Origin: Pyrococcus kukulkanii
GTDB taxonomy: Archaea; Methanobacteriota_B; Thermococci; Thermococcales; Thermococcaceae
DNA: 64,000 bases
Reading direction: 5' to 3'
NCBI RefSeq assembly: GCF_001577775.1
Contig: NZ_CP010835.1
Span: forward strand, 558,001 to 622,000
Shown here in pieces: positions 46,003 to 50,841 of this stretch (the stretch's first letter is position 1; each line of letters opens with the position of its first letter). The translations under genes were made by a program, and so were the position numbers. Under the pieces are notes generated by a model. It was given only the letters and a program-made list of their open reading frames with translations. It did no database searches and had not been told where the DNA came from.

Positions 46003-46037
46003 TAAGCCCCACCATTTTCATGCTTGTAAAACGACCT

Positions 46038-46051
46038 TATAAGGTTTCTTA
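46038..46051 (-). promoter_or_regulatory. promoter of the acdA-iorA-iorB operon
   Basis: On the minus strand, GAAACCTTATAAGG combines a BRE-like GAAAC with a TATA core, about 40-50 bp before the ATG at 46002. A GTTTTAC follows. No repressor palindrome is visible. Confidence 0.6.
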
Positions 46052-46116
46052 GGCTTCAATGGACGTAGAAATGCAACGATGAGCAAGTTCTTATACCACC
46101 TTTAGGAAGAGGTCAT

Positions 46117-46149
46117 CTCTACGCGAGATTTTTGTTGACTCACGTAGAG
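46117..46149. repeat. hairpin inverted repeat
   Basis: CTCTACGCGAG (46117-46127) pairs with CTCACGTAGAG (46139-46149) over 11 bp, with one G-U type mismatch, around an 11-base loop. It lies between the acdA promoter and a decayed reading frame. It could be a terminator-like hairpin or the end of a lost mobile element. Confidence 0.5.
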
Positions 46150-46372
46150 GTTTATTTCTCATGCTTCTGAGGGACGAATCGCTCGAATGCCTGCAGAATT
46201 CAGCCAGCCAAACTATTGCTGGAAGAGTACAGAGAGTATGAGTTATAAAACAAGACTCAAACCAATTATTTGAAACTTGCACTCCTAACAGAAAAGTTCA
46301 AAAGGGCAGTTGAGCCGGTAGTTGGGCTCCCAGCTCAAGGCATCCATAAAGGTTCGTTGGGTCTAAGCTAAA
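46150..46372 (+). pseudogene. decayed coding sequence of unknown family
   Basis: The plus strand reads MLLRDESLECLQNSASQTIA and, after a shift, LEEYREYEL-stop-NKTQTNYLKLALLTEKFKRA then VEPVVGLPAQGIHKGSLGLS before a stop at 46370-46372. The spacing of charged and hydrophobic residues looks protein-like, but I cannot name the family. An in-frame stop and a shift break it. Nothing else is in this 380-bp gap apart from the acdA promoter and the hairpin. Confidence 0.35.
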
Positions 46373-46383
46373 ATTAGGAAAGT

Positions 46384-46713
46384 TTAAGATTTGAGCTTCT
46401 CTAAGTAATCCCTTAGGAAATTAGGGTCTTCCCTCTTAACGACCTCCATTAGCTCATCAAATTTCCTTTCCCCAAGAGCCTTTTTTAAGTAATAGTATAG
46501 GTCAACGGCATCCTCAACTATCTTGCTCTGTCTTCTTCCCTCCTCAGCGTAAAGCTCTATTAACTTTCTGTTTGTGTCAAGGGATATGTAGAGGGTTTTT
46601 TGCTTCTTCTCTTTCTTGAGATCTCTTTCTTCCTTCTTTTTCTTCCCAGGCTTTGTGAGTTCATCAAGGGATCCCGAGAAGAGCTTCGGTATTTTTCCCT
46701 TTTCATTCGACAA
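46384..46713 (-). CDS. ribbon-helix-helix protein, probable ParA partner
   Basis: A 109-residue protein. A basic N-terminal tail (PGKKKKEERDLKKEKK) precedes a ribbon-helix-helix-like segment KTLYISLDTNRKLIELYAEE then GRRQSKIVEDAVDLYYYLKK, and an acidic helical C-terminus. It overlaps the ParA gene by 11 bases. This is the arrangement of small centromere-binding proteins in type Ib-like partition pairs: ParA ATPase upstream, RHH protein downstream. No centromere-like repeat is obvious nearby. Confidence 0.65.
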   Translation of the reverse strand: MSNEKGKIPKLFSGSLDELTKPGKKKKEERDLKKEKKQKTLYISLDTNRKLIELYAEEGRRQSKIVEDAVDLYYYLKKALGERKFDELMEVVKREDPNFLRDYLEKLKS

Positions 46714-47470
46714 TTGAGATCACCTCTTTGGCAAGTTTTTCAAATGCTTTGCTTGCCTTACCATCGGGCTCGTACTCAAATATACTTTTCCCTTCCGCTT
46801 GAGCTTTCTCTATCGCTATTGCCTTAGGGATCGTGGGGAGTATTGGTGCATCTGGATAGAGCTCCTTGAGCTCTTTGAGTCTCATCTGGGGGACTTTCGT
46901 TTGTTTAGTAAATTTATTGGGGACTATGCCGAGTAACCTGAGGTTGTCATTTGTCTCTTCTTTTATCATTGTCATTAAGTTAAACATTAGTTGCATGCCT
47001 ATTACTCCAAAATAGCTGAGCTCTAGTGGAATTAAAACATAGTCTGAAGCCGTGAGAGAGTTGACTAAGAATATCCCCATGCTTGGAGGGTTGTCAATTA
47101 TAATGTAATCGTAATCGGGAAATACTGGCTTCAGCGCTTTCTCTAATCTCCTCTCCCTATTGTATGAGTTAAGGATCTCAATTTCCTTTGCGGATAGGAT
47201 TAAGTGGCTGGGAATTAGATCTAAATTCTCCTTCACCCTAATTATAACGTCCTCTATTGAGCTCTCCCTTGTCATTAATGTTCCAACGTTCTTATCTGCA
47301 TAATTAATGACATCCATACCTATCAAGGCGAATGTTAAGTTGAACTGTGGGTCTATATCTACAAGGAGTACTTTTTTGCCAAGTTTAGCGAGAGCGTGGC
47401 CTAAATTTAATGTGAGGGTTGTCTTACCGACTCCTCCTTTCTGGTTGGCTACACTAATAACTACTCCCAT
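46703..47470 (-). CDS. parA: ParA/Soj-type ATPase
   Basis: A 255-residue Walker-type ATPase: VVISVANQKGGVGKTTLTLN (deviant Walker A), LLVDIDPQFNLTFALIG (Walker A'), DYDYIIIDNPPSMGIFLVNS (Walker B), then LSYFGVIGMQLMFNLMTMIK and VPNKFTKQTKVPQMRLKEL. ParA proteins segregate DNA or place protein cargo. The RHH gene downstream overlaps; the upstream neighbour is ftsZ (51 bp away). ATG 47470 gives the family N-terminus. Confidence 0.9.
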   Translation of the reverse strand: MGVVISVANQKGGVGKTTLTLNLGHALAKLGKKVLLVDIDPQFNLTFALIGMDVINYADKNVGTLMTRESSIEDVIIRVKENLDLIPSHLILSAKEIEILNSYNRERRLEKALKPVFPDYDYIIIDNPPSMGIFLVNSLTASDYVLIPLELSYFGVIGMQLMFNLMTMIKEETNDNLRLLGIVPNKFTKQTKVPQMRLKELKELYPDAPILPTIPKAIAIEKAQAEGKSIFEYEPDGKASKAFEKLAKEVISIVE

Positions 47471-47520
47471 TAAAGCCACCTAAGAAGTGTGTAGAAAATG
47501 TAAGTTAAAAATTTTAAAGA

Positions 47521-48765
47521 TTAAAGTTCATAGAAGCCAAGATCCTTAAATACCTTCTTTACGTAATCCTCTCTTCTCTTGCTCAGCCTTTTGCCTCTAG
47601 GATCTATTTCGGCAAATATTTCGTCGATTTTGCTGTCAACGGCCATAATTTCGCTGGGTGAAATTATTGGGTTTGAGTCCGTTAAAGCGTGAACTTCGAC
47701 AGTCTCCTTATATCCTAGTATTTGTGGACTTTTTACCCCCGTCATTATAACCATTGCTCTTACAGTCTTACCCATATCAGGATCTACCATTGCTCCCCAT
47801 TTAATTTCGCTCTTCTCCCCGAGTTTCTCGTAAACTATTTCCATTGCACTTGTTATCTCCTTCAGGCTAACATCAGGTCCCACGGTAAAGTGCACTAGAG
47901 CCTTATCTCCGGATCCAAACTCTACCTCAAGCATCTTATTATTTAGGGCCTCCATCACGGCATCTACTGCTCTGTTGTTTGAGTCGCTCTCTCCGATTCC
48001 TATAAGGGCAGGCCCTCCGCCTTTCATTACACTATAGATATCGGCGTAATCTATGTTCACCATGGAAGGGAGCTTTATCGTTTCGATTATCCCCTTGACC
48101 ATCCTAGCTATAATTTCGTCTGCGAACCTAAATGCTGTCTGAATTGGAAGATTTGGAACTAAATCTATTAACTTGTCATTCTGGATTATTATTACGGTAT
48201 CAGAATACTCAAGGAGCATCTTTATTCCAGCTCTAGCTTTCTCTATTCTAACACGTCCTTCCATTTTGAATGGAAAAGTTACAACGCTTATGACAAGAGG
48301 CTCCTGAAGTTTGGCATTGTTTCTTGCAGTCTCCTTGATTATTCTTGCAACTACTGGAGCAGCACCGGTTCCTGTTCCGTTGCCCATTCCTGCCGTTATG
48401 AACACAAGATCGTAATCCTTAACCATCTTTGCGATCTCATTGGCACTTGCCTCTGCTGCTCTGTAACCTATTCTGGGGTCTCCACCGGATCCCTTCCCCT
48501 GGGTTATCGACCTACCTAGCAAAAGCTTCTTATGGGCTTTAATTTGGTGCAGATGCTGGGCATCGGTGTTCATAGCTATTAGATCTGCTCCTTGGACACC
48601 AAGGTCATAAAGCCTGCTAATTGTATTGTTGCCAGAACCTCCCACACCAATGACTGCAATCTTTATAAGGTCTTCACTATCCCCAAAAAATTCAGAGGTT
48701 TCAACTTTCTCTCCGTCAAAGTCAAGGTCGATTCCGGCTTGCTCTAACAATTTCTTAAATACCAT
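47521..48765 (-). CDS. ftsZ: cell division GTPase FtsZ (probably FtsZ2 type)
   Basis: A 414-residue tubulin-like GTPase. [20 protein letters not shown] binds nucleotide, [20 protein letters not shown] is the tubulin signature (GGxGTG variant), and [20 protein letters not shown] is the T7 loop that activates the neighbouring subunit. The C-terminal tail is basic ([17 protein letters not shown]). The upstream RHH gene resembles CdrS, which in haloarchaea controls ftsZ2, so I favour FtsZ2. It builds the division ring with FtsZ1, not in this window. Confidence 0.9.
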
Positions 48766-48786
48766 TCCTCCCCTCCTCCCCCAAGT

Positions 48787-48975
48787 TTATCTAACAAGGT
48801 ATTCAGGGAGCTCTTCCTGTAACTCTTCCCTGTACAGCTCCTTCTTAAGAAGCTCCCTGATAGCTACCCGAATAGCTTCACTTCTATTTGGGAAAACACC
48901 TCTTTTAACAAGAGCGTCAAGCCCGTGTATCATACTTTGAGGTAGTTGAACGCTGATTATTTTCATCTTGGCCAT
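48787..48975 (-). CDS. ribbon-helix-helix regulator, CdrS-like
   Basis: A 62-residue protein: MAKMKIISVQLPQSMIHGLD then ALVKRGVFPNRSEAIRVAIR and ELLKKELYREELQEELPEYL. PNRSEAIR is the RHH recognition helix. It lies 21 bp upstream of ftsZ on the same strand, exactly where CdrS sits in other archaea. CdrS is a repressor/activator of ftsZ2 in Halobacterium (established). The binding site is not identified here. ATG 48975 is preferred; the frame to 48990 is possible. Confidence 0.8.
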   Translation of the reverse strand: MAKMKIISVQLPQSMIHGLDALVKRGVFPNRSEAIRVAIRELLKKELYREELQEELPEYLVR

Positions 48976-49140
48976 TCTTTCAACACCCACGGAGAGTTTC
49001 CTATTCTAAGCCTGCGCTTTAATTAGTTAAATATTTTTGGCCTAAGTTATTATTGTCATAATATCATTCTTTAAAAATTCAAAATTTCTTCTCCTAATAT
49101 TTTAAAAATTTTAATAAACTTAACCTCCCAGGATAGCATG

Positions 49141-49665: not shown

Positions 49666-50841
49666 ATGAGACAGAAAAAGAAGTACTTCATTGCAACTCG
49701 AATGGGTCTCATACAGCGATCTAAGATAAGGGAACTTTTTGAAAGAGCCTCAAAAATGAAAGGCGTTATATCTCTTGGAATAGGAGAACCGGACTTTGAT
49801 ACTCCTGCCAATGTTAAAGAAGCAGCGAAGAGGGCTATAGATGAAGGATGGACACATTATACGCCGAATGCAGGAATCCAAGAGCTTAGGGAAGCAATTG
49901 TTGAGTATTATAAGAAATTCTACGATGTTGACGTCGAAATTGACAATGTAATAGTCACTGCAGGAGCTTACGAAGCAACGTACATAGCCTTCGAAACGCT
50001 TCTTGAGCAGGGAGATGAAGTTATAATCCCCGATCCCGCATTCGTTAGCTACGTTGAAGATGCAAAGCTCGCTGAGGCTAAACCCATAAGGATACCTCTG
50101 AGGGAGGAGAACGACTTCATGGTGGATCCAGATGAGTTGCTTGAGCTTGTTACAAAGAGAACAAGGATGATAGTTATTAACTATCCCAATAATCCAACCG
50201 GGGCAGTTCTGGAAAAAGAAGTTGCCAAAGCAATAGCTGACATAGCCCAGGATTATAACATCTACATATTGAGTGATGAACCATATGAACACTTCCTATA
50301 TGATGACGCAAAGCACTATCCGATGATAAAGTTCGCCCCCGAAAACACGATCCTTGTTAACTCGTTCTCAAAGACCTTCGCAATGACCGGGTGGAGGTTA
50401 GGGTTCGCAATAGCTCCAAGTCAAATCATTAAAGACATGGTAAAACTTCATGCCTATGTTATAGGGAATGTAACTTCATTTGTGCAGGTTGCTGGAGTCG
50501 AAGCATTGAGGAGTGAGGAGAGCTGGAAAGCTGTAGAAAAAATGAAGAAAGAGTACGCAGAGAGGAGAAAGATAGTTCTTGACAGGCTAAAGAAAATGCC
50601 CTATATAAAAGTCAGAGAGCCGAAAGGGGCATTTTATATCTTCCCGAACATAAGTGAAACCGAAATGAGTAGTGAAGAGTTCAGTGAATGGTTACTTGAA
50701 AAAGCAAAGGTCGTTGTAATTCCTGGGACGGCATTTGGTAAGAATGGTGAAGGGTACATAAGGATAAGTTATGCGACGAGCAGGGAGAAACTCATCGAGG
50801 CGATGGACAGAATAGAGAAAGCCCTGAGTGAGGTGAAATAA
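49666..50841 (+). CDS. PLP-dependent aminotransferase class I (aspartate/aromatic type)
   Basis: A 391-residue protein: GVISLGIGEPDFDTPANVKE then AAKRAIDEGWTHYTPNAGIQ; PLP contacts VINYPNNPTGAVLEKE, ILSDEPYEHFLYDDAKHYP and the lysine in NSFSKTFAMTGWRLGFAIAP; C-terminal GTAFGKNGEGYIRISYAT. The nearest relatives I recall are aspartate or aromatic amino acid aminotransferases. It could feed iorAB with aryl-pyruvates, though the genes are 4 kb apart. Good ribosome site GGTGAG before ATG 49666. Confidence 0.88.
   Translation: MRQKKKYFIATRMGLIQRSKIRELFERASKMKGVISLGIGEPDFDTPANVKEAAKRAIDEGWTHYTPNAGIQELREAIVEYYKKFYDVDVEIDNVIVTAGAYEATYIAFETLLEQGDEVIIPDPAFVSYVEDAKLAEAKPIRIPLREENDFMVDPDELLELVTKRTRMIVINYPNNPTGAVLEKEVAKAIADIAQDYNIYILSDEPYEHFLYDDAKHYPMIKFAPENTILVNSFSKTFAMTGWRLGFAIAPSQIIKDMVKLHAYVIGNVTSFVQVAGVEALRSEESWKAVEKMKKEYAERRKIVLDRLKKMPYIKVREPKGAFYIFPNISETEMSSEEFSEWLLEKAKVVVIPGTAFGKNGEGYIRISYATSREKLIEAMDRIEKALSEVK

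Follow-up and report, generated by a model that had tools for sequence, protein, structure and literature searches.

Why should the genes for a ParA ATPase and a small partner protein lie directly behind ftsZ in Pyrococcus kukulkanii? A preliminary description of this locus proposed a compact unit of four genes in which ParA, together with a ribbon-helix-helix (RHH) partner, might position the division ring or move DNA or another cargo. The DNA analysed here, referred to as the window, is a stretch of 64,000 nucleotides from that genome, and the locus was compared with its counterparts in other Thermococcales, in plasmids and in the SegAB system. The relationship of the ftsZ2-linked pair to plasmids, its pattern of replacement by SegAB and a probable operator are new beyond that description, and no earlier account of the ftsZ2-parA linkage was found in the literature searched.

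The cdrS-ftsZ2-parA-rhh2 unit and its conservation

All four open reading frames are on the minus strand of the window, with the following features.

49047..49064, minus strand: palindrome ATATTAT-GACA-ATAATAA, probable CdrS operator (from 29/29 cdrS promoters in six genera)
49017..49039, minus strand: invariant cdrS promoter block CAAAAATATTTAACTAATTAAAG, BRE/TATA-like (from an alignment of cdrS upstream regions)
48787..48975, minus strand: cdrS-like gene (RHH1), 62-aa ribbon-helix-helix protein (from RHH_1, NCBIfam and its order-wide position beside ftsZ2)
47521..48765, minus strand: ftsZ2, 414 aa (from TIGR00065)
47471..47520, minus strand: ftsZ2-parA spacer, 50 bp (from a sequence comparison of spacers)
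46703..47470, minus strand: parA, Soj-type ParA ATPase (from AAA_31, an invariant KGGVGKTT and Soj as the nearest structure)
46718..46726, minus strand, within parA: Shine-Dalgarno sequence GAGGTGATC of rhh2 (from the sequence; GAGGTG is kept in the order)
46384..46713, minus strand: rhh2, 109-aa probable RHH partner of ParA (from alignment, a plasmid homologue and AlphaFold)

In the order cdrS-ftsZ2-parA-rhh2, the genes are separated by 21 bp and 50 bp, after which parA and rhh2 overlap by 11 bp. The first of these distances agrees with the preliminary description, and both reading frames that border it are present. The gap between ftsZ and parA, formerly put at 51 bp, is indeed short, but it measures 50 bp if parA starts at its ATG (47470), which is preceded by an AGGTGG Shine-Dalgarno sequence, and 41 bp if counted to the GTG given in a mechanical list of reading frames. 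The start codon of rhh2 is a TTG at 46713, located inside the end of parA and behind GAGGTGATC; the overlap claimed for a second RHH gene is therefore real, and weak but consistent evidence points to the RHH nature of its product. On the 3' side of rhh2 lies a non-coding gap of 380 bp (window 46003-46383) with short inverted repeats CTCTACGCGAG / CTCACGTAGAG. This gap is not conserved, and an Rfam search for an RNA element near the cluster gave no match.

The ftsZ2 product scores 366 bits against TIGR00065, above the NCBIfam cut-off, and is distinct from a second FtsZ (49% identical) encoded elsewhere in the genome. A more distant FtsZ-like match (28%), at G000:C1:1865606-1866619 (L003), lies in an open frame of great length for which one internal TGA is reported.

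Conservation was assessed in 94 Thermococcales genomes, with distances computed from match coordinates. At the thresholds used, ftsZ2 and cdrS were each recognised in 91 genomes, and rhh2 in 84. A synteny check across the order found the parA-ftsZ linkage conserved: in 75 genomes, representing 5/6 genera, parA shares the strand of ftsZ2 and lies immediately 3' of it, while G035, G046, G052 and G056 were left undecided, either because of where a contig ended or because no ftsZ2 match was obtained. Across the 57 distinct units compared, 35 bp is the median length of the ftsZ2-parA spacer, and all spacers lie between 24 and 87 bp except that of unit L062, for which the value is apparently negative. 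The overlap of parA and rhh2 is 11-20 bp in 55/57 units, and in these same units rhh2 starts with TTG, mostly behind GAGGTG. Because it recurs in about 75 genomes of five genera, the compact four-gene arrangement cannot be ascribed to chance, although these genomes are not independent counts, since the whole neighbourhood is conserved (aminotransferase-Cgi121 / cdrS-ftsZ2-parA-rhh2 / FAD synthase). In several Pyrococcus genomes, including P. kukulkanii, a different gene stands right 3' of rhh2, and the four genes are still together. In two sister families, ten genomes, each of them fragmented, carried their ParA matches and FtsZ2 on separate contigs.

The cdrS promoter and a probable operator

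The CdrS protein matches RHH_1 above the Pfam cut-off; its best NCBIfam match is the halobacterial CdrS model (2.9e-11), yet it scores below the equivalog cut-off of that model. An RHH regulator immediately upstream of ftsZ2, as in the CdrS-FtsZ2 unit, is found throughout the order. The arrangement resembles the haloarchaeal operon in that cdrS immediately precedes ftsZ2, but descriptions of the latter give cdrL-cdrS-ftsZ2, with no parA-rhh2.

Upstream of cdrS, a palindrome of the form ATAWTAT-N4-ATAWTAT is present in 29/29 units of six genera, with 0-2 mismatches, whereas, when the same sequences are shuffled with their dinucleotides preserved, the best match has about 4 mismatches on average. 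It sits 13-15 bp upstream of the invariant TATTTAAC block in these 29 units, and this genome contains no other exact match to the form that was searched for. A symmetric site upstream of the promoter is also the arrangement at most haloarchaeal CdrS targets (PMC7439475, PMC8406309); those of Haloferax are symmetric and lie mostly upstream of the transcription start (PMC8406309). The palindrome is kept also in genomes that lack parA-rhh2, which makes CdrS its likely binder. Judged from sequence conservation, CdrS probably binds this palindrome as an operator, and the CdrS-like control proposed earlier gains support from its order-wide presence. The ftsZ2-parA spacers contain no order-wide promoter-like sequence, and those of Pyrococcus hold a TATA-like stretch; the four genes may be co-transcribed.

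ParA, rhh2 and their plasmid relatives

ParA is a protein of about 255 aa that scores 189.8 bits against AAA_31. The match begins at residue 7, so that the N-terminal helix-turn-helix domain is absent, as is characteristic of type Ib. In the alignment the ATPase motifs are intact, KGGVGKTT is invariant and the mean column identity is 81%. The nearest structure is bacterial Soj 6iub (7.5e-47), with SegA 7dut far behind (5.7e-13). The checked genomes outside genus g4 (see below) that have the pair contain no strong AAA_31/ParA protein other than the linked one.

The position beside ftsZ2 brings to mind MipZ, MinD and PomZ, which are likewise ParA-superfamily ATPases linked to FtsZ. A ParA patterned by chromosome-bound rhh2 might act on FtsZ2 and thereby place or time the ring, much as MipZ or PomZ does, and one published account (PMC11588486) describes bacterial ParA-family ATPases that position division proteins. 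The order-wide adjacency to ftsZ2 is what speaks for such ring positioning in these archaea, together with 41.9 bits against the MipZ model, a score over the Pfam cut-off but far under that of AAA_31. With the archaeal MinD model of NCBIfam the protein reaches 108 bits, where the cut-off is 201.75, and the nearest structures are of the Soj/ParA type; by sequence the protein belongs with Soj/ParA rather than with MinD or MipZ. Moreover, cdrS-ftsZ2 stays intact where the pair is missing (genus g4 and genome G034), and the C-terminal tails of FtsZ2 show no consistent change tracking this loss. The suggestion that ParA and its partner position the ring thus found nothing beyond linkage to sustain it, and we regard it as unlikely.

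The partner gene is real, as the preliminary description had it, and its product is only probably of the RHH, centromere-binder type. An alignment of 40 sequences (mean column identity 68%) reveals an N-terminal KIPKLFxGSVxELTKP motif, followed by a KTLYIS strand and two helices; in the AlphaFold monomer these helices span residues 45-58 and 62-80, after an extended KTLYIS segment. Profile searches gave no significant family match, and the weak RHH_1, Arc-like and repressor-family matches were all non-significant. With SvtR (2kel) and omega (1irq) the protein aligns across their RHH region, at non-significant E values of 0.34 and 0.67, respectively, and a Foldseek search with the monomer gave no useful match. 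The sequence and the predicted model together suggest a probable RHH protein whose fold is statistically unproven. A comparison of rhh2 with CdrS by hhalign detected no similarity, and hence nothing to suggest that one small protein arose by duplication of the other. Within its phylum the rhh2 family was found only in Thermococcales, and a scan of the genome collection gave the same result; weak relatives occur on two plasmids, and none was found in the viral contigs searched. An orphan relative (about 33% identity) lies on the Thermococcus nautili plasmid THER333_p (L148:2872-3204), with no annotated ParA beside it.

The closest relative of the pair found outside Thermococcales is MJ_RS09090-MJ_RS09095 on plasmid pDSM2661_1 of Methanocaldococcus jannaschii, whose ParA is also the best plasmid relative of the linked ParA (51-52% identical). 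There, parA overlaps the gene of a 110-aa partner by 11 bp, the same overlap as in the window. In an alignment of 96 columns (E 2.8e-13) the partner proves homologous to the rhh2 family over its whole length, and it shares an N-terminal SGxVxxLT-like motif and a KTL(Y/R)I strand. The plasmid cassette differs in being plasmid-borne, in not lying beside ftsZ and in a partner identity of only about 31%. Since both proteins have homologues in it, parA-rhh2 is related to a plasmid partition cassette. A small ParA with a small downstream RHH-like partner is likewise the composition of type Ib systems (delta/omega of pSM19035, ParFG), and omega, although not a significant match, ranks with the best structural matches of rhh2. 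Unlike these systems, the Thermococcales pair is chromosomal and located in a division operon, and a local centromere array was not found. For want of such an array at the operon, the pair is best regarded as related to type Ib and working like it, rather than as a full member.

Loss of the pair, SegAB and the proposed role of a captured cassette

In genus g4 (13 genomes), cdrS-ftsZ2 is kept in the conserved block, and in the members examined FAD synthase lies directly 3' of ftsZ2, parA-rhh2 being cleanly missing. In an FtsZ2 tree, the pair-bearing genera g2 and g6 fall outside the group containing g4 (88/91), so that loss in g4 is the simpler reading. A recognisable SegB occurs in 12/13 g4 genomes and in 0/81 others, and matches Sulfolobus SegB 7duv at 1.5e-9. 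The g4 protein (L108:1601-1909, L107:1560-1868) begins with MKKKALGRGLEALI, which resembles the peptide at the N-terminus of bacterial ParB/Spo0J that activates ParA; the remainder matches SegB.

SegAB resembles the linked pair in that a chromosomal ParA-type gene overlaps a small partner gene, and probably in its role, but SegB is unrelated to rhh2 and SegA is far from the linked ParA. No match was obtained between rhh2 and 7duv or 7dv2, and hhalign against g4 SegB gave a probability of 0.4. Accordingly, assignment of the linked pair to SegAB was rejected, the real SegB of the order being located elsewhere. The two systems are mutually exclusive across Thermococcales genera, and g4 looks like a case of non-orthologous replacement of parA-rhh2 by SegAB, a pattern that is one clade-level event and not twelve independent ones. 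In a published survey of SegAB, T. sibiricus stands as the example for Thermococcus, and no further gene was seen to accompany segAB consistently (PMC12284271).

Five g4 genomes also possess an unlinked pair resembling ParA-rhh2, whose two proteins are about 58% and 35% identical, respectively, to those of the linked pair. It might be taken as the linked pair relocated, but its ParA groups with that of the M. jannaschii plasmid (95/93, long branches) and not with the linked clade, and relocation was rejected with moderate trust. At the three loci examined (L093-L095), both sides of the unlinked pair carry AT-rich repeats built around AATTATTTAATTATT, with a period of 8 bp. Sites of this type number 12 in 4 kb, against 0.14 expected, and 15/16 of those in 40 kb adjoin the pair. 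Such clustered repeats beside a plasmid-type ParA cassette represent a candidate centromere; the RHH ParB of pSM19035, for comparison, has sites made of contiguous 7-bp repeats (PMC9499535).

Near the window's own cluster, the search for RHH binding repeats that the preliminary description envisaged returned repeats but nothing convincing. With the g4 iteron motif, no centromere-like array was found at the ftsZ2-linked locus in the ten genomes checked, and no convincing centromere emerged among the palindromes that recur within the 40 kb surrounding the clusters. One candidate, GATAGT-N5-ACTATC (window 50169-50185), lies upstream in 7/10 genomes and is rare genome-wide, but it spells the I-V-x-N-Y codons of the aminotransferase; synonymous codons are conserved, and its conservation probably reflects coding constraint. 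If the linked pair does segregate the chromosome, its sites must therefore lie elsewhere or be different.

RHH proteins are often repressors. With its weak repressor-family matches, rhh2 might mainly be a transcription regulator, or else the pair might move another cargo, such as an envelope or motility structure; ParA-family ATPases are described as positioning varied cargoes (PMC11588486). The cdrS-promoter palindrome, however, is kept in genomes without rhh2 and so is not specific to it, and the sister cassette of g4 has centromere-like iterons. Both possibilities appear very improbable. Somewhat less improbable, but still poorly favoured, is a domesticated or residual plasmid module that hitch-hikes in the ftsZ2 operon with little function in segregation: plasmid relatives exist, a centromere near the linked locus was not found, and the pair was lost in g4 and G034. 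Such a relic is hard to reconcile with the strong conservation of ParA and rhh2, with intact ATPase motifs, with the presence of the pair across five genera or with a loss in g4 that coincides with the presence of SegB. The complete 1.5-Mb genome G034 (L102; 99% complete), of another genus, is without the pair, SegB or any strong ParA; having lost the pair without gaining SegB, it indicates that cells can do without the system under some circumstances. G034 is in itself a natural loss of parA-rhh2 worth studying.

The reading that we favour, and consider reasonably probable, is that of a captured cassette that acts on the chromosome, either segregating or organising it, with its synthesis tied to that of ftsZ2. 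A partition cassette, consisting of ParA and a probable RHH centromere-binder, would have been captured behind cdrS-ftsZ2 before Thermococcales diversified, and would now serve the chromosome, its presumed cargo. ATP-bound ParA may coat the nucleoid while dimers of rhh2 bind chromosomal sites, and the conserved N-terminal peptide of rhh2 may trigger ATP hydrolysis by ParA, spreading sister DNA. With parA-rhh2 coming after ftsZ2, one CdrS-type promoter could yield division and segregation proteins together, and rhh2 would be translationally coupled to parA. The SegAB replacement pattern and the plasmid relatives support this segregation reading, as does the precedent of Halobacterium, where deletion of cdrS misregulates ftsZ2 and several soj genes (PMC7439475). 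So does the rearrangement seen in most Pyrococcus, whose breakpoint falls right 3' of rhh2 and which leaves the four genes together. Against it stand the linked locus without a centromere-like array in ten genomes, G034 without pair or SegB and the statistically unproven fold of rhh2; moreover, Thermococcus is polyploid (PMC5120986), which weakens the need for active segregation.

A bolder proposal, which we put forward as doubtful, is that the operon couples segregation and division physically and not only genetically, with ParA-rhh2 as the link between the FtsZ2 ring and chromosome sites undergoing segregation. If so, division-plane choice or ring timing would depend on segregation in FtsZ-based archaea.

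These results bear on how archaea that divide with FtsZ segregate their chromosomes and tie segregation to division. SegAB, the best characterised archaeal system for chromosome partition, appears to be absent from 5/6 Thermococcales genera. In its place the operon offers two candidate segregation genes and a candidate operator, and the question is directly testable because the operon occurs in genetically tractable species of Thermococcus. If the segregation reading is true, a plasmid-type partition cassette was captured by a division operon, and within a single order one segregation system was replaced by an unrelated one. The arrangement suggests that cells of Thermococcales make their division and DNA-segregation proteins together.
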